From positions 1 through 23,869 of IMG/VR virus record IMGVR_UViG_3300037805_000110: a stretch of 23,869 nucleotides of DNA; one strand, given 5' to 3'. Origin of the DNA: a virus. The translations under genes and the position numbers were made by a program. Position 1 is the stretch's first letter, and each line of letters opens with the position of its first letter. The notes beneath the pieces are model-generated. The model had not been told where the DNA came from. It worked only from the letters and a program-made list of their open reading frames with translations, and made no database searches. Below are positions 3,288-23,027 of this stretch, piece by piece.

Positions 3288-3296
3288 CTATTTATA
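3288..3296 (-). promoter_or_regulatory. T4-type late promoter
   Basis: TATAAATAG on the minus strand is an exact TATAAATA match. It overlaps the TAA stop of the ligase fusion gene and lies 26 nt before the ATG at 3262. Confidence 0.8.
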
Positions 3297-4806
3297 CAGC
3301 AGTATAGAACTCTCTAATCTCGACATACATCGAGTGGATCTCTTTTGGTGTGTTTGCCTTGAAGTATTTATCATCATCGATCTTCTCAATGACCTTGGAC
3401 GCACTAATATCGTCGTCCGTCCTAGGAGTCTCGTCAACACTCACATCTGGCATTCTCGCCAACTGTGTGTTATACGAGTCAACACGATCAGTGCCAGCCA
3501 TGATAACATTGATGTTGTTGTCGGACTTGTTCATTAGTGTAATGAGGTTGCCGCTTGTGGACTCAACAATCTCGATCTTGTTGCCGAATGCTGTTTCCAG
3601 CATCTTACGGCGAAGGGCTTTGGAGTCCTTAGTGTCTTTGCTGGTGATCAGCGCAACAGTCATAGAATCATATTTACGGATGCCCTCAGCGATGATATCA
3701 TAATGGGCGGTGGTCATAACACGATACTTACCAAGCATCAAAGCACCGTTATTACCGTCCAGGCGGCGGGTGGCAATCATCTTAACCGACAACACAAGGT
3801 CGTCAATGATGATGCTGGTATCCTTCTTACTGTGTGAGAATGACGGTGAGTATTTCTTAAAGTGTTTGGCAGCCTCTCTCATATATGAACCGAGATCAAC
3901 CCCGACAGGATTACTCATTAGATACTCTTCAGCAGCACCTCTAACACTTGCCCAATAGGAAGTCTCCGCCTCAACATCATCCTCCTTGAATCTCATCTTA
4001 ATCTTAGCACGTGCCACGTTATCTAACTGGTACTCTTGCTGGAACTTGATGATCTTACCATTGTACTTGATGACAACACCCTCTTCCTTGCCGCCGAACA
4101 CACTCTCAACAGCTAAAAAGATCTTGGAGACACCAGACACGATTGAAGCGTTATCTTCCCACTCAATAGAGTCTTTATACGCATTGAACTCACTCTGTAG
4201 CTCTTTGTGTAGAATACCCTTGTTAAATGTTGCCTCTGTACCCAAAACACCCTTGAACATTAGCAGAGGGGTGTTTAATGAAAGTGACTTAGCGTACTGA
4301 TCACGTTTGTCAATGAAGAATCCCTTTGGCTTGGTTTTCAACATAGCATTCTTAATGGTATACTTGGTGGGAGAATGAGCAATGAGGACCATACCATGTG
4401 GCTTCTTATAGTTGGATGATACAGTGGGCTTACGCATCAAGAACTCAACAAACAGCTCTGTACCAACAGGCACACTATTCTTCCCTATCTTAGCAAAATG
4501 ATCAAGAACCACCTTGAACTGGGAAGAGCCTATGCTTGTCTTCTTAATAGTCTCATCTGAAGCGTAATCGAACTCACCTGAGTAGATGATAGCATTTTTA
4601 TACGCGATCACCCAATCATCAATGGTGCCATTGTTAGCCATCTTAACCACTGTGATTTTCAGTCCATCAAGTTTTGCTTCGACCTCAACTGGTGAGGTCA
4701 AAAACTCTTTGATGGCCTTGTCGTTTGTCAACACCTTGGCAGCAGCTTTAATGCTAATGTCCAGCATAGCCTTGGCTTCTGTTATATATTGCTTAAATGT
4801 CTTCAT
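3292..4806 (-). CDS. Ligase-like / nucleotidylyltransferase fusion with capsid-targeting sequence
   Basis: 504 aa from the ATG at 4806; the longer open frame to 4893 was rejected because MKTF is the recurrent start. Residues 1-10 (MKTFKQYITE|A) are a capsid-targeting sequence with an ITE cleavage site. The N-terminal half has the covalent nucleotidyltransferase motifs of ATP-dependent DNA/RNA ligases: EAKLDGLKI (motif I, Lys of KxDG), ELFVEF (IIIa-like), EEGVVIKY (IV) and IIKFQ (V). The last ~150 residues look like an NMNAT-type adenylyltransferase: MTTAHYDIIAEG at the HxGH position, then VIMAGTDRV and DDISASKV (ISATKV motif). The HxGH motif is degenerate. The substrate is unknown; nucleic-acid repair, capping or NAD metabolism are possible. 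It is read from a late promoter lying inside the neighbouring endonuclease gene. Confidence 0.7.
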   Translation of the reverse strand: MKTFKQYITEAKAMLDISIKAAAKVLTNDKAIKEFLTSPVEVEAKLDGLKITVVKMANNGTIDDWVIAYKNAIIYSGEFDYASDETIKKTSIGSSQFKVVLDHFAKIGKNSVPVGTELFVEFLMRKPTVSSNYKKPHGMVLIAHSPTKYTIKNAMLKTKPKGFFIDKRDQYAKSLSLNTPLLMFKGVLGTEATFNKGILHKELQSEFNAYKDSIEWEDNASIVSGVSKIFLAVESVFGGKEEGVVIKYNGKIIKFQQEYQLDNVARAKIKMRFKEDDVEAETSYWASVRGAAEEYLMSNPVGVDLGSYMREAAKHFKKYSPSFSHSKKDTSIIIDDLVLSVKMIATRRLDGNNGALMLGKYRVMTTAHYDIIAEGIRKYDSMTVALITSKDTKDSKALRRKMLETAFGNKIEIVESTSGNLITLMNKSDNNINVIMAGTDRVDSYNTQLARMPDVSVDETPRTDDDISASKVIEKIDDDKYFKANTPKEIHSMYVEIREFYTAV

Positions 4807-4898: not shown

Positions 4899-5427
4899 AT
4901 GACTACATCTATTTATCAAGGTGGCAACTTCTATGTCTACCTCATCACCGACCTAAATCCCTCAGTCCTGCAATCAGACTACTCACACTGAGAAACGATG
5001 TGGATGAGAATGGTCTTGATGGTATCCAAAGATTATGTCACACTAGATCCATGAACATGAGAAGTGATATAGATGAGAATGGTCTTGATGGTTATCAGAG
5101 GCAAGGTGTAACATTGTCAACCATTAAATCCGATCCTGTATGGAAAGAAACTGTTGGTAAATTAGCATTTGTGCAAGCAGTCAAAACACGAGGGCACGTT
5201 CAGCCCTTATAGGCCACACTCAATATGGAACATTTTCAACCGCTCCAGAGCTGGTAAATGCCATGAATAACACTGTAAGTGTCAACACCATCAATAAACA
5301 CGCTAGAACAAAATTCAACACTGTTATAAACAGATCGTCTATATCACACTCAAAGTATCTCCAGAGTTTACCATATAATCCTATAGGCATGACATGGGCG
5401 GAAACTGGATTCTTTGTGATCGACTAA
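4899..5427 (+). pseudogene. GIY-YIG homing endonuclease relic
   Basis: Three frames are used. The first 30 codons (MTTSIYQGGNFYVYLITDLN, stop at 4991) equal the start of the GIY-YIG gene at 13795, but the YIG half is missing. A middle part repeats DENGLDG twice (about 5002 and 5073) and then gives SDPVWKETVGK, one unit of the 21-aa repeat of the 13795 gene. The last part, in another frame, encodes the shared C-terminal domain (YGTFSTAPELVNAMNN ... GMTWAETGFFVID) and stops at 5427. The nuclease core is deleted, so it is dead. It lies antisense between two tagged phage genes; its stop overlaps the stop of the convergent gene at 5424. Confidence 0.85.
4909..4917 (-). promoter_or_regulatory. Late promoter for the ligase fusion, inside the endonuclease relic
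   Basis: GATAAATAG on the minus strand lies within codons 4-7 (SIYQ) of the relic, 103 nt before the ATG at 4806. It starts a 40-bp block identical to 13808-13847. Confidence 0.65.
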
Positions 5428-6635
5428 CGATCTCGTTTTCTACCATAGTTAGCATAATACTCGTCTGTCATATCCTTGATCTGCTTCTCATATTTCTTCA
5501 GCCAGGGAAAAACATCAATTAGATGATTAACACCGCCGAACTTGATCTCCGCGTCGATGTTCTTATCATCACGTTCAAGAGGTTGTCCAGCAGGACCCCA
5601 ACACACTTCAAGGTATCTCTCAAATGTAGTGGCAATGCCTTTCTTATCAAGATATTTCTTCATCAGTTCAACAACACCGACAAATGACCACATCTTTTGA
5701 AGATCCTTAGAATTACGCTCATTAAATAATATCTGGAACATAGACTCAATCGCAGTCTCATATGATGATCCCTTACTAGGCAACTCTCTATAGACATGCT
5801 TACCATCATGAACCCAATGATCATTTGTGCCAGGAACCATAACAGGCTCATATGCTGTGCGAAGACCACGGACCACACTGAACTTGTTGACATTGATTGT
5901 TGTCAGAGGCTCACCCTTCGTTTTCTTGAACTTCGGCTTCTCATAAGTACCAGACTTCAGAAGAATCAACACATCATCACGCTTAGAAGCGCCGCCAACA
6001 ATCGAGCGCAACAAATATTTGTGGTTAACACCCTTGAACCCCTGTTGAGCATCAGCCAAAGAGGATGAATGACTGAAACGAGCAAACATGTCAGGCTCAC
6101 CATTCTCAAACGCGGTGAACTCGAAATCCACCTGAGATTGTGTCTCATTCTCACCAAAAGTCACTTGGAACACTGAGTTGATCTGCTCACCAATAGAACT
6201 CACTGACAGTTTATTACACCCACGATACTCAACATCCTTCATGAAGTGCGGATTGCTCTCAAGATCATCTAAGAGGTGCCATAGATCTGCTTTATACTCA
6301 TGTGGTACCATAATATCAATGTCGCCAGCAGTAGGCTTATATGGGATGACAGCATCATCGGCCAACTCAGGATTCATAATAAATGAAGTTGAACCATTAA
6401 ACGCGACACCGTTCTTGAGAATTTTCTTGTTCTCCCACAACGGATAACCGTACTTCTTCTCAAATAGACGGTCAATCTCTTCAAACACCTCAATGAACTT
6501 CTTAATGAACTGGGCACGCCCGATATCCTTCAGAGGAATCTTCTGGGCAAGTGTATCCATACCAGTTTGCTTGTTCGTTGCTCTTGCATTGCCGCCCTCT
6601 TGGAGTTGCTTTCTATGTTGGTTAAATGTTTTCAT
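5424..6635 (-). CDS. Nucleotidyltransferase-fold protein with capsid-targeting sequence
   Basis: 403 aa. MKTFNQHRKQLQE|GG is a variant capsid-targeting start in which LQE at 11-13 fits the prohead-protease rule. Residues around 70-105 have FNGSTSFIMN, then AGDIDIMV, and later VDFEFTAF. This GS...DxD...D layout is the active-site pattern of polymerase-beta-type nucleotidyltransferases (two metal-binding Asp plus a third acidic residue). The target could be RNA, protein or a small molecule. The start follows the stop of the tagged gene at 6637 after one base, so the two are co-translated. The C-terminal half is not recognised. Confidence 0.65.
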   Translation of the reverse strand: MKTFNQHRKQLQEGGNARATNKQTGMDTLAQKIPLKDIGRAQFIKKFIEVFEEIDRLFEKKYGYPLWENKKILKNGVAFNGSTSFIMNPELADDAVIPYKPTAGDIDIMVPHEYKADLWHLLDDLESNPHFMKDVEYRGCNKLSVSSIGEQINSVFQVTFGENETQSQVDFEFTAFENGEPDMFARFSHSSSLADAQQGFKGVNHKYLLRSIVGGASKRDDVLILLKSGTYEKPKFKKTKGEPLTTINVNKFSVVRGLRTAYEPVMVPGTNDHWVHDGKHVYRELPSKGSSYETAIESMFQILFNERNSKDLQKMWSFVGVVELMKKYLDKKGIATTFERYLEVCWGPAGQPLERDDKNIDAEIKFGGVNHLIDVFPWLKKYEKQIKDMTDEYYANYGRKRDR

Positions 6636-6636
6636 A

Positions 6637-7914
6637 TTATTTGATCTTAACGTAAAGTGAATTGGTGTCGGTAACTTTCATCGCAGAGAAGAATGAGTAT
6701 CGCATAACTTCATCATATCGCTTCATAATGAAATCCAAGTGAGATGCTAGAATAACATATCGACGCTTTAATGTATCGTCAAAGTCATCAAAATTATTCG
6801 GCCAAAGAAGGGCATTGTCCTTCTTCATAATGTCCTTACTATACATCTTGAATGTACCCTTAGCATTCTGAAGATCGCTTTCACTAAATTTGAACTTGTT
6901 GCCATTCAGGATCTGGCCCTTTGTATATCTCTTCCATGCTTTAGCATCAATGGCACCCATAGCAAAGTTCTCTTGCTTGAATGTTCCTTCAAGATATAGT
7001 GTGGTGCTATTCTCTTTGGCACGTGAGTTGCCCTTCCAAGTGAAACCGCTCTTAGTCTCGATAAATAACGACTTGAGTGATCCTGAGATGATGATCTTGT
7101 TCAATGAGAAGTCATAGTCTAGCTTCTTATTCTTATATTTAGATGGGTTCACTAACTCCATAGATGACTTCTTGGACGCCTGCTTCAATGAAATGGGACA
7201 AAGACCACCAGTCAGATATTGCACACGAATCCAATGAACCAACTCTTCCATATGAGTCATCTTGCCAACATCTTGAGCAACTGTGTTGGCAATCCTCATA
7301 TTGAACAACCATAAATCAGCAGGATTCCAGTTGTCAGCAGAAGACGGTCCGCCCAGTCTCTTGGCCGCAGCATAAATGTGTTTAGAGATGCTATCTCCCT
7401 GAAACTCGAAGATGTACTGATTGCCTCTCAATGGCTTAATCTTCTTATACGATTCAAGTTGAAGTTGAGCACTATCAAAAAACTTGTCAATATATAGTGT
7501 TGGATCAGCATCATATTTAGGCAACTCAGCCTCAATGGCACCCTCAGATATCAAGGAGTTCGTCTCTTGATAGTGTTTAAACACGATAAGTGAAACAGCC
7601 TCTTTAACTCGTGTGGCCTTGTGAGTGTCTGACTTACCTCCTCCCATCTTAGCAAATGATGCGTTAATGGCACTAGGCGAACCATTCAGTTTATAAGTCA
7701 CGCCAGCAATAGACAAAATTACAGAAGATGGACCAGATCCCAATTCTACCATATTATCAGTTGGAGCGCCAATCTCAATATCACCGGCAGGAATAAGTGC
7801 TGCCAGTGTCTTATTAGGACTCTTCGCCAAGCGTAGTTTTGTGCCTGGAGCGTATTCACCCTGAGATCTATTTACCAGTGTCATCTCGTTCAAGTACTCA
7901 TTAAAACTCTTCAT
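6637..7914 (-). CDS. Tagged protein, possible PD-(D/E)XK-type nuclease
   Basis: 425 aa. The start MKSFNEYLNE|MT is a capsid-targeting sequence with an LNE site. In the middle, NWNPADLWLF is followed about 50 residues later by GGLCPISLKQ. A D followed by a hydrophobic strand ending in (S)LK is what the catalytic core of PD-(D/E)XK nucleases looks like, and an N-P-x-D-x-W pattern with ISLK is, as far as I remember, found in phage and restriction nucleases. This is inference from short motifs. The start overlaps the end of the methyltransferase gene by 14 nt. If it is a nuclease, the neighbouring methyltransferase could protect phage DNA. Confidence 0.6.
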   Translation of the reverse strand: MKSFNEYLNEMTLVNRSQGEYAPGTKLRLAKSPNKTLAALIPAGDIEIGAPTDNMVELGSGPSSVILSIAGVTYKLNGSPSAINASFAKMGGGKSDTHKATRVKEAVSLIVFKHYQETNSLISEGAIEAELPKYDADPTLYIDKFFDSAQLQLESYKKIKPLRGNQYIFEFQGDSISKHIYAAAKRLGGPSSADNWNPADLWLFNMRIANTVAQDVGKMTHMEELVHWIRVQYLTGGLCPISLKQASKKSSMELVNPSKYKNKKLDYDFSLNKIIISGSLKSLFIETKSGFTWKGNSRAKENSTTLYLEGTFKQENFAMGAIDAKAWKRYTKGQILNGNKFKFSESDLQNAKGTFKMYSKDIMKKDNALLWPNNFDDFDDTLKRRYVILASHLDFIMKRYDEVMRYSFFSAMKVTDTNSLYVKIK

Positions 7915-8689
7915 TGTATACCTTTAATAGTTCACCCTGTGTGAAAGTTGGTGCCATTGCTGTTTCAAGCGCACACTCATATAACTGTTGCTGTATGCTG
8001 TCTAAATTACACTTCAGAGTGTATTTATCAATATTACTTTTCAAGAAAATGAACTGTGTTATAGGCTTGGCATTAACCGGATCAACGATCTCCCCTGTAT
8101 TCTTCCATCCTGTACGTCTCACAGCCCAATCAGCGTCATCCTTATTGAAGCATTTGCCTTGCTTGACAATAGAGAAGTCCGCCACATCTTTAGGAAGCAC
8201 CATCTTTTCTCTTGGGAACATCTTTCTCTCCCACACCTGAAATACACATCTGGCAGAAGTACCCGACTCAAACACACCCTCGTCCAACACTATATTGGTG
8301 CTCATATGAAACATAGAATTCAATTGATTGATGATATACGCTTTATTGAATGACCTAGGCACGATGAATGCTATCGTCTCAGCATAAACGGCGGCCTCGT
8401 TGAAAAAGTCAATAGCGCCCTGTGCTCTATATCCAAATGGTGGATTGCCGATGACAAGGATATTATCATTCACCGGCACATATGATCGACTCTTCAGATA
8501 GTCAACTTCAATCGTGTATGGTGTCTTTGGATCAATATCAAACGCAACTCGTTTGTTAGAGGGAATGAGATCAGAAAAAGCACCAGCGCCCGCAGACGGC
8601 TCAATAATAGTATCGTATTGAGAATCATCAATCAGATCATATAACTCTTTGGATAAGTCGCGTTCCGTGAAGTGTTGGTCTAATTTCAT
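7901..8689 (-). CDS. DNA N6-adenine-type methyltransferase
   Basis: 262 aa from the second of two adjacent ATGs (8692 and 8689). EPSAGAGAFSD (residues 34-44) is the SAM-binding motif I, FDIDP is motif II, and GNPPFGY is catalytic motif IV (NPPF type, amino-methyltransferases). The region AIDFFNEAA...IAFIVPRSF fits motifs V-VI. The nearest type is the small gamma-class or Eco57I-like N6A methyltransferase of phages; RNA as substrate is not excluded. It has no capsid-targeting start. A sigma70-like promoter stands immediately before the gene, so it can be made early, unlike its tagged neighbours. Confidence 0.8.
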   Translation of the reverse strand: MKLDQHFTERDLSKELYDLIDDSQYDTIIEPSAGAGAFSDLIPSNKRVAFDIDPKTPYTIEVDYLKSRSYVPVNDNILVIGNPPFGYRAQGAIDFFNEAAVYAETIAFIVPRSFNKAYIINQLNSMFHMSTNIVLDEGVFESGTSARCVFQVWERKMFPREKMVLPKDVADFSIVKQGKCFNKDDADWAVRRTGWKNTGEIVDPVNAKPITQFIFLKSNIDKYTLKCNLDSIQQQLYECALETAMAPTFTQGELLKVYNEEF

Positions 8690-8695
8690 CATAAC

Positions 8696-8724
8696 ATTAT
8701 ATCACATTGATTGAAAAGTGTTAA
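8696..8724 (-). promoter_or_regulatory. Sigma70-like promoter for the methyltransferase gene
   Basis: On the minus strand: TTAACA (8719-8724), 17 nt, TATAAT (8696-8701), with TG one base before the -10. The -10 ends 6 nt before the ATG at 8689, so the start of transcription would coincide with the start codon. Confidence 0.75.
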
Positions 8725-8727
8725 TTC

Positions 8728-8807
8728 TTTACCTTTATGTTGTAATCTGCTTTAACTGCTCTATATGTCTCACGGGCGCGTTCATTGCCCTTGATGACCT
8801 TCCACTC
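8728..8807 (-). repeat. 80-bp direct repeat, copy 1 (displaced 3' end of the kinase gene)
   Basis: Identical to 9145-9224. It encodes the last ~27 residues of the kinase gene (EWKVIKGNERARETYRAVKA and on) but now lies after the gene at 8806, without a gene of its own. Confidence 0.9.
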
Positions 8808-9138
8808 ACTTATAATATATTTCCACAGAATCATCTTTACCCATACTAGAATCGGCCATCCAAGTAGCATAGAACTCAGATGGTTTATTTTCCTTCACCC
8901 ATTTTCTCACGCCTGTTAGTGTATTAACACGTTTAGTGTTCACATATCCTTTTTTAGCGGAGTCCTTGAACTCACCAATCACCTTTCTATTGTCAACCTG
9001 GCCACCAAACCCCCTCTTAGGAAAATCGTTACCGCCAACATTGTTGTTGAGTTGAATAGCAAAATTCATCTTATCAACTGTACCAAAGAATGGTTTAGGA
9101 CCTCTAGCTTCTGTTATAAACTCTACATATGTCTTCAT
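8806..9138 (-). CDS. Tagged small protein inserted behind the kinase gene
   Basis: 110 aa. The start MKTYVEFITE|ARG is very close to the T4 internal-protein start MKTYQEFIAE|A, and ITE is a good prohead-protease site. The mature part is basic and Gly/Asn-rich (NNNVGGNDFPKRGFGG) without a recognised fold. Its ATG shares one base with the TAA of the kinase gene (TAATG). It is flanked by two copies of an 80-bp piece of the kinase 3' end, so the gene looks like a recent insertion into the operon. Function unknown; a small injected inhibitor, like T4 IPI*, is a possibility. Confidence 0.65.
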   Translation of the reverse strand: MKTYVEFITEARGPKPFFGTVDKMNFAIQLNNNVGGNDFPKRGFGGQVDNRKVIGEFKDSAKKGYVNTKRVNTLTGVRKWVKENKPSEFYATWMADSSMGKDDSVEIYYK

Positions 9139-9671
9139 TAGTTATTTACCTTTATGTTGTAATCTGCTTTAACTGCTCTATATGTCTCACGGGCGCGTTC
9201 ATTGCCCTTGATGACCTTCCACTCCGGGATACTGCTCTGCTTACCGATCTTGGCACGTTTATTCATGCGTTTGATAGCGGTGTCAGCGTTCACATCAATC
9301 AACACAACAGCAACGGAGTATCCCATTGAATGTGCTTTATCCACCTTGTTCTGAATGGTTTTAACACTACCACCAACAGTCACTTGGCCGAATGATACAC
9401 CCTGCTTGAGATACCCATCAATCTCCTTGTTGGCAACACCAATAGCTTTATTGAGGATCTTCGTGCGCTTCTCGAAGTCACCTCCGCTCAATTTAAACGT
9501 GATCTCATCCATGTCCACAAGTGGCATATTGGGGAAATGTGAGTTGAACACGGTATTTTTACCTGAAGCGGGACCACCACATACTATAATGAACACAGGG
9601 CCTATATCTGTGCTATCCAGATCAGCCAGTGTGATCTTAGACTCGTTTAAAAACTCTTCAAACGTCTTCAT
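9138..9671 (-). CDS. P-loop kinase (zeta-toxin / polynucleotide-kinase-like) with capsid-targeting sequence
   Basis: 177 aa. MKTFEEFLNE|SK is a capsid-targeting start with an LNE site. Residues 26-39 give VFIIVCGGPASGKNTV, a strand plus Walker A (GxxxxGKN[T]), followed by LVDMDE, which resembles the DxD of zeta-toxin and polynucleotide-kinase families. Near residue 118 AVVLIDVNADTAIKRMNKR looks like the lid-arginine region of such kinases. The substrate is unknown (nucleotide, RNA 5' end or a cell-wall precursor are family options). The ATG overlaps the stop of the upstream gene by ATGA. Confidence 0.75.
   Translation of the reverse strand: MKTFEEFLNESKITLADLDSTDIGPVFIIVCGGPASGKNTVFNSHFPNMPLVDMDEITFKLSGGDFEKRTKILNKAIGVANKEIDGYLKQGVSFGQVTVGGSVKTIQNKVDKAHSMGYSVAVVLIDVNADTAIKRMNKRAKIGKQSSIPEWKVIKGNERARETYRAVKADYNIKVNN
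9145..9224 (-). repeat. 80-bp direct repeat, copy 2 (3' end of the kinase gene)
   Basis: Identical to 8728-8807. In this copy the sequence is the in-frame C-terminus of the kinase gene. Confidence 0.9.
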
Positions 9672-11044
9672 ACATCAAACATCGCGTTCAACTTCTCTTG
9701 CGTCTTCTTAGGCACTTTATACGCCTTGAACCATACATTCATATCATCACCAAATAGAACCGACGCTGAATCGAAATGCTTTGTTATGAAGGCGAAATCC
9801 TTATCATTCAACTTGTCTGCGTACTTCATTAGATACTCTGGCATCAATAATTTAGTGCTCTCAGTGTCACCTATCTGGAATCCGAACTTCATAATGTGCT
9901 TATTTCTAATGAGTCTCTTAAAGTCTTTAATTGTGACCTGATCGCCGTTCGCAAGTGTTGGGGAAATAAGAATCATCTCATCACCAATAGTCTTGATGGT
10001 ATCACGTATAGTGATTCTCTCAAGATTATTCATCATCTCCTTTGATGTGTAAATGACCATCTTAGGATTCACATTCATCACCTTCTCAACCACCGTGAAC
10101 GCGCTCTTGTCAACGAAGATTGCTTGTGTTGGCTCTGATGGATGAATGATGCCCTTTCCGCTCTTATCCGCAAATCCACTGTATCCAAGCGCGCGGAACA
10201 CACTGTTCCACTTGATGACATCCCTGTTGGCCATCTTTTTCTGAGTGTCCTCAAAAGTTCCAGGTCCTGCTAACATAGAGGAAAGCTCCCCAGTCACATA
10301 CCAGAATGATCCAGCAGGACCCTTTACAGCAGCGTTTTTGATGGATGTTCGGACAATACCCTGAATACTATCATCGAACTCACGATTATAATTGTTGATG
10401 ATCGCCTTTATCACACCAGATGAATTGAACCGTGAATATGGTGTACGCTCAAGAGGTTCCCAGTGGTCTAAACCACCAAAGTAACCATTCATCCCATCAA
10501 CGAAATCTTCCCATTCTATAGACTCATCATTCAGTATTTTACGGATCTGCTGTGACCAATCGGATAGCATCTGAATATCACTATCATTTTGGCCAGTTTG
10601 ATTGATTATGATTTTGGCGATTTTGAGAGAGTACTTGACAATAACTGTATCCACCACGCCGATGTCTTTACCATACAATTGATCCAACTTCGCCATATCA
10701 CGGTCAAAGTCAGCACTTGTATACTCAGTGTACAGATCCTTGACGAACTTCTCTTTAGTCTGACGAATCACCCAGATATATGGCGCCTTACCAGCAAATG
10801 GCACTTCGACATGACGCTGTTTGTGATTGAACTCCTTAAAGATCTCTTTCAGCGGATAGGAATATATGGAAATTGGGGTGTTATATGGCGAGTGTGGATT
10901 GATGCCTATCTTATCAACACCAGTAAATGAGATGTATATGTCCTCATCGTCCTTATACTTCTCAAGAGCATCATAAGCAGATATCTTAGGATTCTGTTCG
11001 GGGTTACGTCTAGCTTCAAATAGGAATTCGTTAAATGTCTTCAT
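9668..11044 (-). CDS. Large tagged protein, function unknown
   Basis: 458 aa from the ATG at 11044; the open frame reaches 11134 but MKTFNEFLFE|ARR is the capsid-targeting start used throughout this region (LFE site). Residues 36-60 read YISFTGVDKIGINPHSPYNT, followed by a PISIYSYPL stretch, a signature I associate with uncharacterised internal proteins of large phages. The C-terminal half has GKGIIHPSEPTQAIFV, another motif of that group. An enzyme such as an ADP-ribosyltransferase is conceivable but no catalytic triad can be assigned. It is the first gene of a tagged operon (11044-8806) and is served by the late promoter at 11139. Confidence 0.65.
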   Translation of the reverse strand: MKTFNEFLFEARRNPEQNPKISAYDALEKYKDDEDIYISFTGVDKIGINPHSPYNTPISIYSYPLKEIFKEFNHKQRHVEVPFAGKAPYIWVIRQTKEKFVKDLYTEYTSADFDRDMAKLDQLYGKDIGVVDTVIVKYSLKIAKIIINQTGQNDSDIQMLSDWSQQIRKILNDESIEWEDFVDGMNGYFGGLDHWEPLERTPYSRFNSSGVIKAIINNYNREFDDSIQGIVRTSIKNAAVKGPAGSFWYVTGELSSMLAGPGTFEDTQKKMANRDVIKWNSVFRALGYSGFADKSGKGIIHPSEPTQAIFVDKSAFTVVEKVMNVNPKMVIYTSKEMMNNLERITIRDTIKTIGDEMILISPTLANGDQVTIKDFKRLIRNKHIMKFGFQIGDTESTKLLMPEYLMKYADKLNDKDFAFITKHFDSASVLFGDDMNVWFKAYKVPKKTQEKLNAMFDV

Positions 11045-13688: not shown

Positions 13689-13717
13689 ATTATATCACAA
13701 AATCACGTTATTGTGAA
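13689..13717 (-). promoter_or_regulatory. Sigma70-like promoter for the AAA ATPase gene
   Basis: On the minus strand: TTCACA (13712-13717), 17 nt, TATAAT (13689-13694), with TG one base before the -10. Six nt separate TATAAT from the ATG at 13682. Confidence 0.75.
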
Positions 13718-13761: not shown

Positions 13762-13807
13762 TCTAAACATTTTCACAACAGTTAAGGAACCATTATGTCC
13801 AGCAAAC

Positions 13808-13816
13808 CTATTTATC
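13808..13816 (-). promoter_or_regulatory. Late promoter on the opposite strand inside the endonuclease gene
   Basis: GATAAATAG on the minus strand lies in codons 5-8 (PIYQ) of the GIY-YIG gene, 126 nt before the ATG of the AAA ATPase gene, which would thereby have an early and a late promoter. Confidence 0.6.
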
Positions 13817-14184
13817 AAGGTGGCAACTTCTATGTCTACCTCATCACAGATCTAAACCATCACTCTGAAGCACGCTACTATATAGGCTCTGCCACTCGTA
13901 AAGAGCTGGTTGAGAAGAACATCGACCCTGAGCTGGATACATATTACGGCTCATCAAGCGTTGTATCCTTATTTGAGCGTCAAAAGACACAATCACATGA
14001 GCTGGAACGAGTCATCATTGAGACATTTGATGATAAGAAGGAATGTTTATTAGTAGAAGAATGGTATCAGAGACAACACCAAGCTGTTGGGAATCCATTA
14101 TTCTACAATAAGGTCTATGCTAACAATAAGTATACTCCCACAGCAGACTCGATAAGAAAGATGTTGGAGACGCGAAACACGCTA

Positions 14185-14562
14185 GAGTGGCAAGAAACTG
14201 TGGGTAGAGAGGCTAAACGTAAAGAAGCTGAAACTAAAAGTGATCCACTATGGAAGGAAACCGTTGGAAAGAAAGCAGTCGAAGATCGACTGAAGACTAT
14301 TAGTGATCCTGAATGGAAGGAGACTACAGGTAGAAATATGGTGAAAACCCGACTTGAGACTATAAGTACCCCTGAATGGAAGGATACTGTTGGAAAGGAA
14401 GCTAAATGTAAAGAAGCTGAAACTAAAAGCGATCCTATCTGGCAAGAAACAATCGGTAAAGAAGCTATTAGAAGACATAAGGAGACTAAGAGCGACCCTG
14501 AATGGAAAGACAGTGTTGATAGAAACGCCAAAGTCATCAGGGGTCAGATATCATTCAATAGG
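14185..14562 (+). repeat. Six 63-bp repeats coding for 21-aa units
   Basis: Units start at 14185, 14248, 14311, 14374, 14437 and 14500. Each begins with xW(K/Q)(E/D)(T/S) and the first five end with S(D/T)P. The conserved core is EWKETVGKEA. They are diverged from each other, so this is an old expansion. Confidence 0.85.
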
Positions 14563-14785
14563 CCATAAGGATCACGGAACTTTCAATTTCGGTCCAGAGT
14601 TGGCAAATGCTATGAATAACTCAATCTCTCCTACAACCATCAACAGATTGGCATTGTCGAACTTCAGCAAAGTCATCAATAAGCGGGCGATATCGAAGAG
14701 CGAGTACCTTCAGAACTTACCCTTTAATCCTGAAGGTATGACATGGGCGGAAACGGGATTTTATGTGGTTGAAGACTAACGAAAC

Positions 14786-16159: not shown

Positions 16160-16188
16160 ATTATATCATCCATCTTGTGTCATGTTAA
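16160..16188 (-). promoter_or_regulatory. Sigma70-like promoter for gene 41
   Basis: On the minus strand: TTAACA (16183-16188), 17 nt, TATAAT (16160-16165), with TG one base before the -10. It overlaps the end of the upstream small gene; 6 nt separate TATAAT from the ATG at 16153. Confidence 0.75.
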
Positions 16189-18448: not shown

Positions 18449-19372
18449 TCACCCAAAGAACGATTCCAGCGAGACTCTTTTCTCATGAGACCAATCAATA
18501 GCATTCAGCATAAGTTTCAACGGCTTAACGAACGCCTTCTCAAATTGAAGATCCCTATCAATCCACTTGGGATCAAATGCTTCTGGGATGCCATCATGGA
18601 AGCCCATCACATGCGAATGATATGGGTTAGGCTCTTTCAAATATGTGAACACCAGCTTACCACCATCATCAATGGGTGTGATAGTGTCGTTTTCACCCAA
18701 CATCTCATTGTGCGTGATGGCAGCCTTTGAGTTAATGGGAACACCCTTAGATACAGGCACACCATTCTCATAATACTTGGACACACTACTCACACCTCGT
18801 GGCATCCCAATATCCTCAATCGATAGTGTGTCAAACTCCCTCTTCACATCATCAATATAACTAATGAGGTCATCATTTGTCTTGTCCATCATATATCCCA
18901 CACACTCTTTCAGCTTGTCACGAAGGATAGCAGGTGTGGAAGACTTCACGATGTCAAGTCCCATAATCTTCATCTTAGGCTCAGGATACCGCACGCCCTC
19001 AGAGTCATAGACACGTATAGCATATCTCTTCTTGGAGACGAATATGCCGGGTGTACCAATGATTTCTCTGTCTGCTGCTAGGGTTCTCTCGGTTACGTTG
19101 AGATAGTCCATTAGGACCCCGTACATTCGTTCCAGCTCAGGTTCCATCTTCTCAGCAGAGAACTTGGCAAGCATATCGACCACTTTATCAGTGTCGGCAT
19201 TTGGCATGAACTTCTCAACAAGAGGAGACACGTCCATGTAAACGGAATTGTGAACTAATATGTCATTAGCAAAGAAGTTATGGTTATTCTTCACCTCAAT
19301 ATCATATACCCACTCCTCTTTAACACCCAACGACTCAATCTCATAATCACTTATTAGATTCAAAGTATCCAT
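18449..19372 (-). CDS. 43: DNA polymerase C-terminal part with C-half of a split intein
   Basis: 307 aa from its own ATG at 19372. Residues 1-42 are the C-intein: WVYDIEV (block F start) and HNFFANDILVHN (blocks F and G), followed by Ser as the +1 residue. From there SVYMDVSPLVEKF continues the polymerase palm right after YGDTD. FVSKKRYAIRVYD is the KKRY motif, KIMGLDIVKSSTPAI follows, and the protein ends SLESFFG, equal to the clamp-binding end of T4 gp43 (SLDFLFG in RB69). A TAA directly precedes the ATG, so it cannot be read through from the upstream piece. Ligation to the N-part by protein trans-splicing is inferred. Confidence 0.9.
   Translation of the reverse strand: MDTLNLISDYEIESLGVKEEWVYDIEVKNNHNFFANDILVHNSVYMDVSPLVEKFMPNADTDKVVDMLAKFSAEKMEPELERMYGVLMDYLNVTERTLAADREIIGTPGIFVSKKRYAIRVYDSEGVRYPEPKMKIMGLDIVKSSTPAILRDKLKECVGYMMDKTNDDLISYIDDVKREFDTLSIEDIGMPRGVSSVSKYYENGVPVSKGVPINSKAAITHNEMLGENDTITPIDDGGKLVFTYLKEPNPYHSHVMGFHDGIPEAFDPKWIDRDLQFEKAFVKPLKLMLNAIDWSHEKRVSLESFFG
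19247..19372 (-). other. C-intein (IntC) of the split polymerase intein
   Basis: 42 codons. The terminal His-Asn plus Ser+1 are the residues needed for Asn cyclisation and transfer. HNFFANDILVHNS is also, as I recall it, how the known split intein NrdJ-1 ends. Confidence 0.9.
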
Positions 19373-19389
19373 TTATTTTTCTCACAATA

Positions 19390-20278
19390 TTATCCATTTA
19401 TCATCACAATTTCATCACCCTTCCTCAAATCATGGACAGTGCCAGAAATTAACCTCTCTCCTCTACATATCATTATTGAATGATCGCCTGTAATCACCAC
19501 TTCCTTACCACCCGATTTAATCTTGAACATCTCTTTCTTAACTTTATGTGCCATAACATAACTAACATCATTATACTCAATACAGAAGTTATCATTAACA
19601 CTTGCGGCCTTCAGTCCATGCGGTAAGTGTTTGATGAGATTGTCCTTTCCTCGAATCTCAACTTCACCATCGCTATCATTAAATAAATCCTCAATTTTAA
19701 TCCCACCGTAATTTGTAGTTATTACACTATCTCCAACAACACTGTCGGTGTCCCCATAAACACAGTACTTACCGTCAATGGGATGAATCCTCTGGAAGAA
19801 CTCCTCAAGCCCCTTATCCATCCACTTAACTGTAAGTTGACCAGTGTGAGTGATAGCGTTTGCCTGCTCAACATCAAAGTATCGAAAATGTACATTGGCA
19901 ACTGCGCCATATAAACTATTTAACCATTATGTTCGAGAAAACACGCTACCATCTTCTCCGTTCTCTTATGAACTGCTATATGTCACCATATAGATCAGAC
20001 TATATCATCACCCTAATCAATAGGGGCTGGGCGCTTCCACTCACTTGAGTGTACTCCCTCGCGGGATAGTCGTTGCACCTTCCTCAATGAGGCTTGGCTC
20101 AGGATTGTCTACTTGAGAGTTCCCCTGAATTCACCCAGTTATTCGACAGGGGTCACCCCCTGAAGTCACATTATTTTATGATCTTACGAGTCATTTGGGC
20201 ATTCCCAAACAACACTTCTCTGCTACTAGCGTCTTTATAAGCAGCAATCAACTCATCATCACTCATTTCTTCATACAT
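19390..20278 (-). CDS. 43: DNA polymerase palm part, with group I intron, ending in N-half of a split intein
   Basis: Exon 20278-20178 begins with AAGGA then ATG and codes MYEEMSDDELIAAYKDASS to MTRKI. After removal of the intron 19925-20177 the frame continues as KIMLNSLYGAVANVHFRYFD (the polymerase B motif), then ANAITHTGQLTVKW, and reaches the catalytic YGDTD (motif C) at 19758-19744. From Ser at 19743 the sequence is intein: SVVGDSVITTN (block A), VVITGDHSIMI (block B), LRKGDEIVM, stop TAA at 19390. The unspliced message stops 4 nt inside the intron. Both RNA splicing and protein splicing are needed to join the two catalytic Asp motifs. The upstream fingers region is out of frame with this piece. 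Confidence 0.8.
19393..19743 (-). other. N-intein (IntN) of the split polymerase intein
   Basis: 117 codons, starting with Ser1. Block A resembles NrdJ-1 (VGSSEIITRNYG as I recall it, here VGDSVITTNYG). Block B has the conserved Asp-His (GDHS). There is no endonuclease domain. The G+C content in sampled lines is about 30-35%, below the polymerase around it. Confidence 0.88.
19925..20177 (-). ncRNA. Group I intron in the DNA polymerase gene
   Basis: 253 nt without an ORF. P1: exon AAGATCAT pairs with intron GTGACTT (20163-20169) with one bulge, giving the required U.G pair at the 5' site. P2: CAGGGG/CCCCTG. Core: AATCCTGAGCCAAG (Q, 20093-20106), GTGCAACGACTA (R, 20067-20078) and GATATAGTCTGA (S, 19995-20006), with P7 pairing ACTAT/ATAGT. 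P9: CTATAT/ATATAG. Two more hairpins precede the 3' end, GTTC/GAAC and GAGAA/TTCTC. The last base is G (19925). Splicing yields KIMLNSLYGA, matching KILINSLYGA of T4 gp43. The core fits subgroup IA, like the T4 td intron. Confidence 0.93.
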
Positions 20279-20399
20279 ATATTATCCTTATCATATATTT
20301 CATATCCATCAAAATCATTATAGTCAAATTCCGTCAGTTTGTAAACATCAACACCAAGATCCTCTAGTGAGTAGCCGACATGATCACAGAGAGAACCGC
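20279..20399 (-). other. Out-of-frame fingers segment between two polymerase pieces
   Basis: In the frame one base back from the upstream cistron, this stretch codes SGSLCDHVGYSLEDLGVDVY, followed by KLTEFDYNDFDGYEIYDKDN, then stops at about 20266. The frame is lost at a run of four G (20413-20416, minus strand) and again at about 20277. Its downstream half (20281-20340) is only about 22% GC. It may be lost polymerase sequence or the remnant of an inserted element. Confidence 0.5.
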
Positions 20400-21629
20400 T
20401 TATATAGATATACCCCTCTTCATCATCTCCTCTTTGATGGCCTCTTTCTCGGCTTCAGCCTCAAGCATCTTACCTTTATACATCTTACGCTCTTTGAACA
20501 GTCCCTCCACAAGGAACGGGATCATACCCTGCTTCTCTCTAGAGTGCCTAACACCATTAGCCGCTAACGTATACTCAATGGCATCCGTATCAATCTTCTG
20601 AGTGAGAAGATCTTCAATGGTCACATCATCCCTCTTACCCAACTTGGTCTCAGGACTCAGATTGAGTGCTCGCATGATGGATGGATATAGTGATGTCAGA
20701 TCAGCAGACAATAGCCACTTGATCATACCCACACGAGGATTGCCCACATATCCACCAACTACAGTGGTATCGCCAGATGAGTGGCCGTTCTTAGGCACAA
20801 TCACACCGTGCTCCAAGCAATAGTTATAGATCCAAGCATCTGCTGGCACAATGGTACCAAACACTTTATCAAATGGGATCTTGGTCATATAACTGAATGC
20901 GATGCCAATGTCCATAAGACCCATCTTATCGTCAAGGCTCTTGACCAACTGTGTATCTTTCAGGGAGTAGTCGAGAAACTTGTGGTAGTCGTCCTCGTAC
21001 AAGGACATGAGGTCACCATGCTCTTCATATGAAATCTTCTTCTCACCCAGCTCAACATGAGCGATATGATCCAACTTATATGACTCTTGGGCCTTGAATG
21101 TGAACTTTTTATATAGCTCTATGTAGTCAAAGGATGCTATACCCACAAAGTCAATGGATGTCGCCTCTTTACCAAAGCCGTTAGTGAATGTGCGAGTGTT
21201 GACAATTCCCCATGGAGACAGGGATTTAGCATACGGGCCGCCAAGTACCTGTGTGATTCTGTTGTAGATGTATAGGTTATCGAACACATCAATGTTCCAG
21301 CCAGTGATAATGTCGGGATCAATCTCTTTCCACAGTGCCACAAACGACTCTAACAGGGATGCTTCATCATCAAATGCGAGGTATTCACACTCATCACTCT
21401 GCCAAGTGTCATCTCCTAGGCCGAGAACCCAATACTTATCATGCGTTGATGAATGGATAGACACCGCCGTGATTTCGTGGGCAGCATCTTCAGGATATGG
21501 AAATCCACCGCTCCTCACATAACAAGACTCACTGAAGTTTACCCACCTTCCCAATTTTTCATCGTAAACTTCATAATCATCCCTATTGTTTAATCCTTTA
21601 AACTCTCTAATCGTATAATCTCTTTCCAT
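20400..21629 (-). CDS. 43: DNA polymerase exonuclease and palm/fingers part
   Basis: 409 aa. After about 40 residues without a counterpart in T4 gp43 (start MERDYTIREFKGLNN), the sequence joins the family at SGGFPYPEDAAHEITAVSIH. DIITGWNIDVFDNLYIYNR is the Exo II motif, and LDYSLKDTQLVKSL is Exo III. SADLTSLYPSIMRALNLSPET is the palm motif A with the first catalytic Asp. FKERKMYKGKMLEAEAEKEA is the start of the fingers. The frame ends at 20400 after KRGISI. It lacks Exo I, which is in the upstream cistron. The ATG at 21629 overlaps the end of the endonuclease ORF by 40 nt. Confidence 0.85.
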   Translation of the reverse strand: MERDYTIREFKGLNNRDDYEVYDEKLGRWVNFSESCYVRSGGFPYPEDAAHEITAVSIHSSTHDKYWVLGLGDDTWQSDECEYLAFDDEASLLESFVALWKEIDPDIITGWNIDVFDNLYIYNRITQVLGGPYAKSLSPWGIVNTRTFTNGFGKEATSIDFVGIASFDYIELYKKFTFKAQESYKLDHIAHVELGEKKISYEEHGDLMSLYEDDYHKFLDYSLKDTQLVKSLDDKMGLMDIGIAFSYMTKIPFDKVFGTIVPADAWIYNYCLEHGVIVPKNGHSSGDTTVVGGYVGNPRVGMIKWLLSADLTSLYPSIMRALNLSPETKLGKRDDVTIEDLLTQKIDTDAIEYTLAANGVRHSREKQGMIPFLVEGLFKERKMYKGKMLEAEAEKEAIKEEMMKRGISI

Positions 21630-22052
21630 TTATCTCTCAATCTTATTGTTCTATCAATGACATGTTGGTGAGTATATCGGGTCAATAACTCGTTGAACTC
21701 CTCATCCGACCACGATGCGTATTTTCTCCCCATATTCTCCTGTTGGTTATTACTCTTTCCACGTTTGCCTTTGGAAATGGCATCGCCTCGCTTCTTATGA
21801 TCACAATTCCGTAAACTGTTATCAAGTCTACCACACATCTCCTCTTCTGTTAATGACGCGCAATACTCTTTGAGTCTAACACTCTGCTTCTCTCGTTCTT
21901 GGTCGTCTACATATCGAGCTGTTGATGTATCAGACGCTCGTTGTCGCATTGTACCGTCATCATTAGCCCACGATTCACGTATCCCGTCTATAGCAGATGC
22001 TTGTATCATAGCAGCTTCCTCTGGATGATCCTTATTCCACTGCTTTTTGCGT

Positions 22053-22105
22053 TCACTCGCACTCTTTCTATGTTCCTCACCCTTAGGCCCATTCCAATAC
22101 TCATC
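22053..22105 (-). repeat. 53-bp exact direct repeat, copy 1
   Basis: Identical to 22173-22225 at a distance of 120 bp, so the reading frame is kept. It encodes DEYWNGPKGEEHRKSASE. Confidence 0.92.
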
Positions 22106-22172
22106 AGTTCTAATCTTGTCCATCATCCTCTGCACTTCAGCTTCCTCACTTCTCCAATACGCCTTACTGATC

Positions 22173-22225
22173 TCACTCGCACTCTTTCTATGTTCCTCAC
22201 CCTTAGGCCCATTCCAATACTCATC
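22173..22225 (-). repeat. 53-bp exact direct repeat, copy 2
   Basis: Identical to 22053-22105. No third base has changed, so the duplication is young. Confidence 0.92.
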
Positions 22226-22242
22226 GGAGCTTTTTCTCATCT

Positions 22243-22578
22243 TCAATTCACTTCAGGCTGTTTTGTTGGATGATGTCTACTGAAATATTCACGGGCTAAC
22301 TTATATCCACGTGCTCTACTTCTACATTGATTATCAGATGACATGCACATATTATTAAAAGCAGATGCCAATTTATGAATGTGAGGGGTGTTGGAATAAA
22401 TCTTACATAACAACCAATGTATTATAAAATGCTCTCTTGCTGATAACTCAACAGTGTACTTAAATGATACTGGACCACCGACACATTTTGGTACAACATG
22501 ATGCCTTTCAGTATACTCATCATTATGTTTATTTGGATTGTTTAGAATAGCAACATACATATCTATATAAAATGACAT
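22243..22578 (-). CDS. HNH homing endonuclease (N-terminal nuclease part) inside the polymerase gene
   Basis: 111 aa. TERHHVVPKCVGG is the HNH beta-hairpin with the catalytic His, and ELSAREHFIIHWLLC is the following helix with the metal-binding His. NNMCMSSDN and the basic RSRARGYKLAREYFSRHHP follow; then the frame closes at 22243. It lies between the first and second polymerase cistrons and has its own late promoter and AGGAG. Endonucleases placed within gene 43 are known from Aeromonas T4-like phages, where the two halves are still made. The target is probably the uninterrupted polymerase gene of related phages (inference). Confidence 0.82.
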   Translation of the reverse strand: MSFYIDMYVAILNNPNKHNDEYTERHHVVPKCVGGPVSFKYTVELSAREHFIIHWLLCKIYSNTPHIHKLASAFNNMCMSSDNQCRSRARGYKLAREYFSRHHPTKQPEVN

Positions 22579-22602
22579 ATTAACTCCTATGAATTGATAT
22601 AT

Positions 22603-22611
22603 CTATTTATA
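22603..22611 (-). promoter_or_regulatory. T4-type late promoter for the HNH cassette
   Basis: TATAAATAG on the minus strand, an exact match, 25 nt before the ATG at 22578, with AGGAG at 22584-22588. Confidence 0.78.
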
Positions 22612-22631
22612 CCCAGTCTCTATATCGTAAA

Positions 22632-23027
22632 TCACTTCTTTCGAACTTTGATGATATGATCACTTGGATAAGCACCGAATTTGGTCTCGATGTCATATGT
22701 GAGGATGCTGATGTTGTCAGGACGTGATAACTCTTGTCCCTTATATTCATCACCTAAAAACGCAATGAGATGATTATCCATACCGCAAATATGAATGTCA
22801 TCTACATCTTTATATTGATCGATGAACTGGCCAGCATCGTACATTGTCTCAAACTTATGAGGTTGCATGTTGTGACCATACAGGTCCTTATGCTTGTGTT
22901 GCTTCTTAGAGCGAGTGAAGAGGGTCGGCTTATATGTGACCTTCTCGTTATGTTTTACACCATTTTCATCAATGAATCGGTGAAGAATCTTGTTGCCCTT
23001 GCGAGCAATAGATGTGTATGTGTTCAT
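22632..23027 (-). CDS. 43: DNA polymerase N-terminal part up to the Exo I motif
   Basis: 131 aa. RFIDENGVKHNEKVTYKPTL, FTRSKKQHKHKDLYGHNM and FETMYDAGQFI align with the start of T4 gp43 (RYIDENG, YKDIYGKNCAPQKF). The Exo I motif LTYDIET comes at about residue 112, and after KFGAYP the homology ends with a short tail (DHIIKVRKK) and a stop. The piece holds the N-terminal domain and the Exo I acids but lacks the rest of the exonuclease, so it must act together with the product of 20400-21629. A GAGGT box and a consensus sigma70 promoter precede it. Confidence 0.88.
   Translation of the reverse strand: MNTYTSIARKGNKILHRFIDENGVKHNEKVTYKPTLFTRSKKQHKHKDLYGHNMQPHKFETMYDAGQFIDQYKDVDDIHICGMDNHLIAFLGDEYKGQELSRPDNISILTYDIETKFGAYPSDHIIKVRKK

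Follow-up and report, generated by a model that had tools for sequence, protein, structure and literature searches.

Genes and features of the locus

The window, i.e., the whole stretch of DNA analyzed here, comprises 23,869 bases (positions 1-23,869 of IMG/VR virus record IMGVR_UViG_3300037805_000110). Its minus strand was read as carrying T4-like replication genes: a split DNA polymerase, uvsX, and a gp41-type helicase, the last two of which matched annotated cyanophage genes. The features considered in this study were as follows.

3292..4806, minus: tagged (MKTFKQYITEA) fusion of a ligase-motif N half and a phosphopantetheine-adenylyltransferase-like C half
5424..6635, minus: 403-aa Pol-beta-like nucleotidyltransferase candidate (GS...GDIDI...DFE)
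6637..7914, minus: 425-aa nuclease-like protein of family phrog_1462, predicted to be head-packaged (ORF, profile, alignment, model)
6988..6990, minus: E309, acidic in 54/54 members (52 E, 2 D; alignment)
7183..7191, minus: SLK (residues 242-244) with invariant K244 (alignment)
7309..7329, minus: WNPADLW (residues 196-202) with invariant D200 (alignment)
7600..7602, minus: E105, Glu throughout the alignment, on the first helix of the putative catalytic domain
7885..7914, minus: N-terminal tag MKSFNEYLNE, predicted capsid-targeting propeptide with a predicted cut after LNE
7901..8692, minus: 263-aa N6-adenine-type DNA methyltransferase (NPPF), solitary (motifs, profile)
8696..8724, minus: sigma70-like site TTAACA-17-TATAAT, upstream of the methyltransferase (11/12 match)
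8806..9138, minus: 110-aa protein with the tag MKTYVEFITE (phrog_2667 match over residues 1-19)
9138..9671, minus: tagged (MKTFEEFLNE) P-loop kinase, AAA_33/zeta-toxin-like
9668..11044, minus: tagged (MKTFNEFLFE) 458-aa protein with no function assigned, from an internal ATG

As described in an earlier note on this DNA, NWNPADLW (residues 195-202) and ISLKQ (residues 241-245) were both found in the tagged 425-aa ORF (6637-7914, minus), and its gene overlapped by 14 bases with that of the methyltransferase, in which NPPF occupied residues 83-86. The end at 8689 given there corresponded to the second ATG of the methyltransferase ORF (7901-8692).

Family and conservation of the 425-aa protein

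The profile of phrog_1462, a family without an assigned function, matched residues 145-424 of the 425-aa protein (E 8.6e-13). Neither this protein nor its family had a meaningful hit when searched against Pfam, NCBIfam, PADLOC, and PDB sequences. Plain tblastn with this protein gave 10 cyanophage records; when it was aligned with three cyanophage relatives obtained in this way (19-27% identical to the window protein), W-N-P-A-D-x-W and S-L-K were invariant. A pattern scan using the 425-aa protein alone produced three pattern matches, none of which was confirmed, and a scan seeded by the four-sequence alignment produced at least 155 confirmed relatives among at least 600 candidates, 80 of which were kept. 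The first motif was present in 80/80 and the second in 79/80 of these (the one exception was cut off), counts that were partly circular because both motifs guided retrieval. A 54-member alignment was made from the window protein and the 80 relatives, minus duplicates, cut-off and some near-duplicate members: E105 was Glu in 54/54, D200 and K244 were invariant, position 309 was acidic in 54/54, and G320 was Gly in 53/54. E105, the acidic residue at 309, and G320 played no part in the retrieval scan. Since the motifs were invariant both in plain-tblastn relatives of such low identity and in the 54 aligned members, they go beyond chance.

The family is widespread and uncharacterized, with members in cyanophages and in other T4-like contigs. 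The window protein has D.WNPADIW and (I/V)SLK in common with the phrog_1462/cyanophage gp182 (syn9) family; the three cyanophage members lacked a tag, whereas the window member was tagged. Structure matches of the 425-aa model in BFVD were uncharacterized phage proteins, mostly from cyanophages. In the open-licence literature, no paper was found on the WNPADIW motif or on DUF6267 (see below).

Putative active site and predicted fold

Among the 54 members, 36-51 residues lay between D and S and 38-53 between D and K (43 between D200 and K244 in the window protein), and the usual (D/E) position of (D/E)XK was Ser in 54/54, a departure from the canonical D + (D/E)xK motif. Enzymes of the CCGG family also carry Ser at the usual acidic position, and their extra Glu sits in a helix. 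PMC4652773 gives the active site of CCGG-family restriction enzymes as PDX21-53KX12-13E plus Glu, and PMC551604 describes acid migration as known among PD-(D/E)XK enzymes. The window protein resembled NgoMIV, Cfr10I, Bse634I, and BsaWI in the helix Glu (E105), D200, K244 and the spacing between the two, the Ser, and a further acid, but had PAD in place of the literal PD, and an acid at K+9 or E309, not at K+12-13, and had no detectable sequence or fold match to them. Its agreement with this type was thus good for E105, D200, and K244 but incomplete for the last acid. After K244, E was found at K+9 in the window protein, and some acid at K+8 to K+15 in 47/54 members. The conserved candidate for the last acid of the putative site is most likely E309.

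AlphaFold models of the whole protein and of residues 90-264 had pLDDT values of 90.1 and 90.2, respectively; E105 fell in a helix, D200 preceded a strand, and SLK closed a strand. No PDB match at E 0.001 or better was obtained by Foldseek with either the whole model or residues 90-264; influenza PA-N, presumably a PD-(D/E)XK nuclease, recurred among the matches at the noise level (E 1.8-6.6). The best VIA matches were below the trustworthy level: FeoA for the whole model (Z 3.5, residues 11-91, rmsd 3.6, 64 aligned), and translin for the middle domain (Z 6.6, domain residues 2-69, rmsd 3.4, 63 aligned). The Bse634I family gave no match to the window, nor to any of 14 controls. These sequence features point to a nuclease-like active site of the form E...D...SxK...acid, and the nuclease reading of the 425-aa protein is likely, though only likely because the confident AlphaFold model had no significant PDB match. 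The nuclease proposed earlier thus retained an invariant E-D-SxK-acid set, held less firmly than the tag, but gained no significant PDB fold match; structure prediction of its core, suggested as a check, yielded a confident model (pLDDT 90) but no significant match by Foldseek or VIA, an outcome that speaks neither for nor against a PD-(D/E)XK fold.

N-terminal tag and predicted packaging

According to PMC9026906, T4 internal proteins carry N-terminal propeptides of 10-19 residues that are removed after L/I-X-E, and MKSFNEYLNE agreed with this rule as given there (key residues at 4 and 7; L/I-x-E at 8-10). The window resembled T4 both in an approximately 10-residue N-terminal propeptide ending in L-x-E, as in IPI, IPII, IPIII, and Alt (prohead protease gp21), and in unrelated cargo proteins encoded as a set. 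It differed from the T4 internal head proteins in that the cargo is a 425-aa nuclease-like enzyme with no search links to them, its packaging being predicted from sequence. The tag was disordered in the AlphaFold model (pLDDT below 50 for residues 1-9), and was shared by five window genes: MKSFNEYLNE, MKTFKQYITE, MKTYVEFITE, MKTFEEFLNE, and MKTFNEFLFE, the second and fifth of which start from internal ATGs as read here. The tagged 110-aa protein matched the internal head protein family phrog_2667 over residues 1-19 only (E 0.013).

Both tagged and untagged homologues were found, e.g., MKTFYQYLSE followed by ASIVNGRYGSGHK versus untagged MASIVGSSKYGEGHK. The untagged start MASIV..YGEGHK corresponded to MKTFYQYLSE/ASIV..YGSGHK (slash, predicted cut); since the tag ends exactly where the untagged form begins after Met, the predicted cleavage would give an identical start. 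Tagged homologues accounted for 28 of 78 with a known 5' end (loose pattern), and a tagged family gene was present in 15/55 non-redundant loci (tighter pattern). Since the majority of the fetched members, including the three cyanophage members, were untagged, packaging may be lineage-specific.

The tag pattern was also compared between the 219 annotated proteins of S-CREM2 (OR473000) and the published list of 52 virion proteins in Table 3 of PMC10665884. The pattern near the start occurred in 5/52 virion proteins and 3/167 other ORFs (Fisher p 0.02). Widening the pattern gave 7 and 3, respectively (p 0.002), and narrowing it gave 4 and 1 (p 0.01); these p values are optimistic because the patterns were picked after viewing the window and 27 virion-protein N-termini. 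The tagged virion proteins in this list included a SAM hydrolase, a Cas9-like protein, a kinase, and a cytidylyltransferase (MKNFSSFLTE). The N-termini of these four were MK.F..FL.E-like, the tag of the Cas9-like protein lying approximately 18 residues in (S-CREM2, L088, and L090). A cytidylyltransferase was also detected in S-SM1 virions (PMC3037559), and the S-CREM2 authors noted in PMC10665884 that virion association could reflect contamination. No member of the 425-aa family was detectable in S-CREM2. These results suggested that MK.F..FL.E-like N-termini are a general cargo tag of T4-like cyanophages. From its sequence, we infer that the 425-aa protein is packaged, cleaved, and ejected. 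The earlier idea of a nuclease entering with the DNA was better supported in its packaging tag (pattern, clean prefix, and S-CREM2 enrichment) than in its nuclease-like site.

Methyltransferase and its promoter-like site

The 263-aa ORF carried EPSAGAGAF and NPPF and matched PADLOC MTase_II at 2.7e-29; by motif I, NPPF, and this profile match, it is assigned as a phage DNA N6-adenine-type methyltransferase. Its relatives numbered 221 phage records at E 1e-3 or better, all below 60% identity. Solitary N6-adenine methyltransferases of Escherichia and Klebsiella phages (GenBank annotation) were 28-34% identical to it among the relatives listed, but the window copy sits in a T4-like operon. In three annotated phages, relatives adjoined DNA polymerase or primase genes.

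No relative of the methyltransferase was found in a comparison of 85 loci (80 from the 425-aa family, three cyanophage, and two other phage loci) or in 49 whole contigs (5-179 kb and mostly fragments, from 49 of the 80 loci), a search in which the window itself was detected as the positive control. A motif search of the 3.5 kb flanking the family gene in 55 non-redundant loci found no other methyltransferase-like ORF; an NPPY-like motif occurred in 1/506 ORFs, and that ORF belonged to the nucleotidyltransferase cluster. A scan of viral contigs for methyltransferase relatives gave seven pattern matches and no confirmed one. On the loci and contigs compared, a restriction-modification pair as a conserved module was rejected, the nuclease and methyltransferase genes not being conserved together there. 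The restriction-like pair of the earlier note was not upheld, and the recurrent partners were other enzymes. The methyltransferase appears to be a chance neighbor, an unlinked solitary gene without a partner role.

The earlier note had also given the methyltransferase its own early promoter. A site with an 11/12 match was indeed present, its -10 box ending three bases ahead of the first ATG, but nothing supported "early". Sites at a 9/12 match were not above shuffles (23 found versus 21.2 expected, 4-12 kb), and those at 11/12 or better on the minus strand of the window numbered seven, including that of the methyltransferase, where 60 simulations averaged 0.55. TATAAT was observed six bases before ATG at 8696-8701, 13689-13694, and 16160-16165 (minus), ahead of the methyltransferase, an AAA ATPase, and the gp41-type helicase, respectively, the spacing for the first and last being counted from the ATG just past the listed start. 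Leaderless transcripts would result from this arrangement. The idea of a leaderless promoter (TATAAT-N6-ATG) in these three genes was dropped, since the 80 related loci showed no enrichment of this spacing.

Neighboring genes and recurrent companions

Of the 55 non-redundant loci, 32 had the gp41-type helicase and 19 had uvsX at most 3.5 kb from the family gene. A DUF6267-type gene was present in 31/55 (KxDG in all 31 listed), and a cluster with HIGH-type nucleotidyltransferases in 35/55, this cluster being single-linkage and including other genes too. The tag pattern occurred on 19 ORFs of the former and 18 ORFs of the latter cluster. In the window, both companion functions seem to be fused in ORF 3292-4806: the C half matched phosphopantetheine adenylyltransferases (best E 1.8e-4), and EAKLDG and EEGVVIK in the N half are taken here as ligase-type motifs. 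Homology of this fusion with DUF6267 was discarded, no match being found at the profile level.

In ORF 5424-6635, GS...GDIDI...DFE presumably represents a Pol-beta-like nucleotidyltransferase motif; its relatives were found in Vibrio Va1 and Campylobacter CP220-type phages, and no solved structure gave a meaningful match. A Pol-beta-like gene adjoined the 425-aa family gene in loci L017 and L049, and in L034 lay approximately 270 bases off on the other strand. Relatives of the fusion and of the Pol-beta-like ORF were each found in 3/49 contigs, and in L049, the fusion, Pol-beta-like, and 425-aa family genes were contiguous.

Proposed function and alternatives

We estimate at approximately 50% the probability that the 425-aa protein is a nuclease-like enzyme that is packaged in the head, is ejected, and acts with co-packaged nucleic-acid-processing enzymes, and that the methyltransferase is not its partner. 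MKSFNEYLNE would direct the protein to the prohead core, where the prohead protease would cut after L-N-E, and the mature protein would remain in the head and be ejected together with the genome. Its metal-dependent nuclease-like site would be formed by E105, D200, K244, and an acid, most likely E309, in a putative nuclease fold. The co-workers would be the KxDG covalent-nucleotidyltransferase-like protein and the HIGH-family nucleotidyltransferase encoded nearby, often tagged and fused here, and, in this phage, also the Pol-beta-like nucleotidyltransferase candidate and the P-loop kinase. Their joint target would be nucleic acid, within the first minutes after infection begins; the most plausible substrates may be the ends of incoming phage DNA, or RNA attacked by host defenses, for trimming, rejoining, or repair. 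The methyltransferase would be a solitary phage enzyme whose gene was inserted upstream in this particular lineage. Phage RNA-repair sets of an RNA ligase and the RlaP Pol-beta nucleotidyltransferase (PMC7824862) similarly combine ligase-like and nucleotidyltransferase proteins, possibly in counter-defense, but the window set is head-tagged and includes a nuclease-like protein, and any relation by descent to RlaP is putative.

A possible alternative is that the 425-aa protein is indeed packaged but has a role other than that of a nuclease, its conserved residues forming a different site, catalytic or binding and dependent on a nucleotide or a metal, that, for example, supports the neighboring nucleotidyltransferases. 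The presence of these neighbors, the absence of a PDB fold match, and the Ser in place of Asp/Glu are consistent with this, but the E-D-K-acid set has the spacing typical of migrated-acid PD-(D/E)XK sites, and D200 is predicted before a strand with SLK at a strand end. It is rather unlikely that the protein serves inside the cell as an ordinary nuclease of DNA repair or recombination, encoded alongside uvsX and gp41, with the tag being incidental or packaging minor. The proximity of uvsX and the gp41-type helicase and the untagged majority of fetched members would fit such a role; against it, the tag is common to five window genes, is cleanly prefixed to the untagged form, and belongs to a pattern enriched among the S-CREM2 virion proteins of the published list.

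Far less probable is a restriction-like pair against the host, in which the ejected nuclease attacks host DNA and the methyltransferase marks phage DNA. The overlap of the two genes, the invariant nuclease-like residues, the likeness of the methyltransferase to Type II enzymes, and the promoter-like site ahead of it agree with such a pair, but the absence of methyltransferase relatives from the loci and contigs compared, the lack of any nearby by motif, and the adjoining polymerase and primase genes in annotated phages oppose it. In addition, the methyltransferase is untagged, so that its synthesis would come only after an ejected nuclease had begun to act. A tempting restriction-modification reading of the locus is thereby corrected.

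Returning to the head-packaged, nuclease-like enzyme, a wider and tentative proposal is that T4-like phages inject a kit: a new-branch PD-(D/E)XK nuclease, a ligase-like covalent nucleotidyltransferase (DUF6267 or a functional stand-in), and a HIGH-family nucleotidyltransferase, joined in some lineages by a Pol-beta nucleotidyltransferase and a kinase. If so, nucleic acid would be repaired or processed ahead of any phage gene expression. Ejected proteins act ahead of all such expression, and functions have been established for only a few of them; nuclease-like, ligase-like, and nucleotidyltransferase genes recurring near uvsX/gp41 as a tagged set would indicate an unrecognized first step of infection, and a simple cargo-marking tag in T4-like genomes would make cargo readable from metagenomes.

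Other observations in the window

A near-identical stretch of approximately 75 bases was seen by eye twice, at approximately 8730-8806 and 9145-9222. One copy lies at the kinase gene end and the other downstream of the gene for the 110-aa protein, an arrangement that points to a local duplication. Tandem peptide repeats, e.g., KSDPEWK and EYWNGPKGEEHRKSASE, were present in ORFs 13795-14568 (plus) and 21590-22246 (minus); the start of the former resembles what we take to be a GIY-YIG nuclease, and these repeats may be homing-endonuclease repeat tails. The DNA polymerase (18449-23027, minus) was apparently divided among several ORFs and interrupted by an intein-like insertion near HNFFANDILVHNS.
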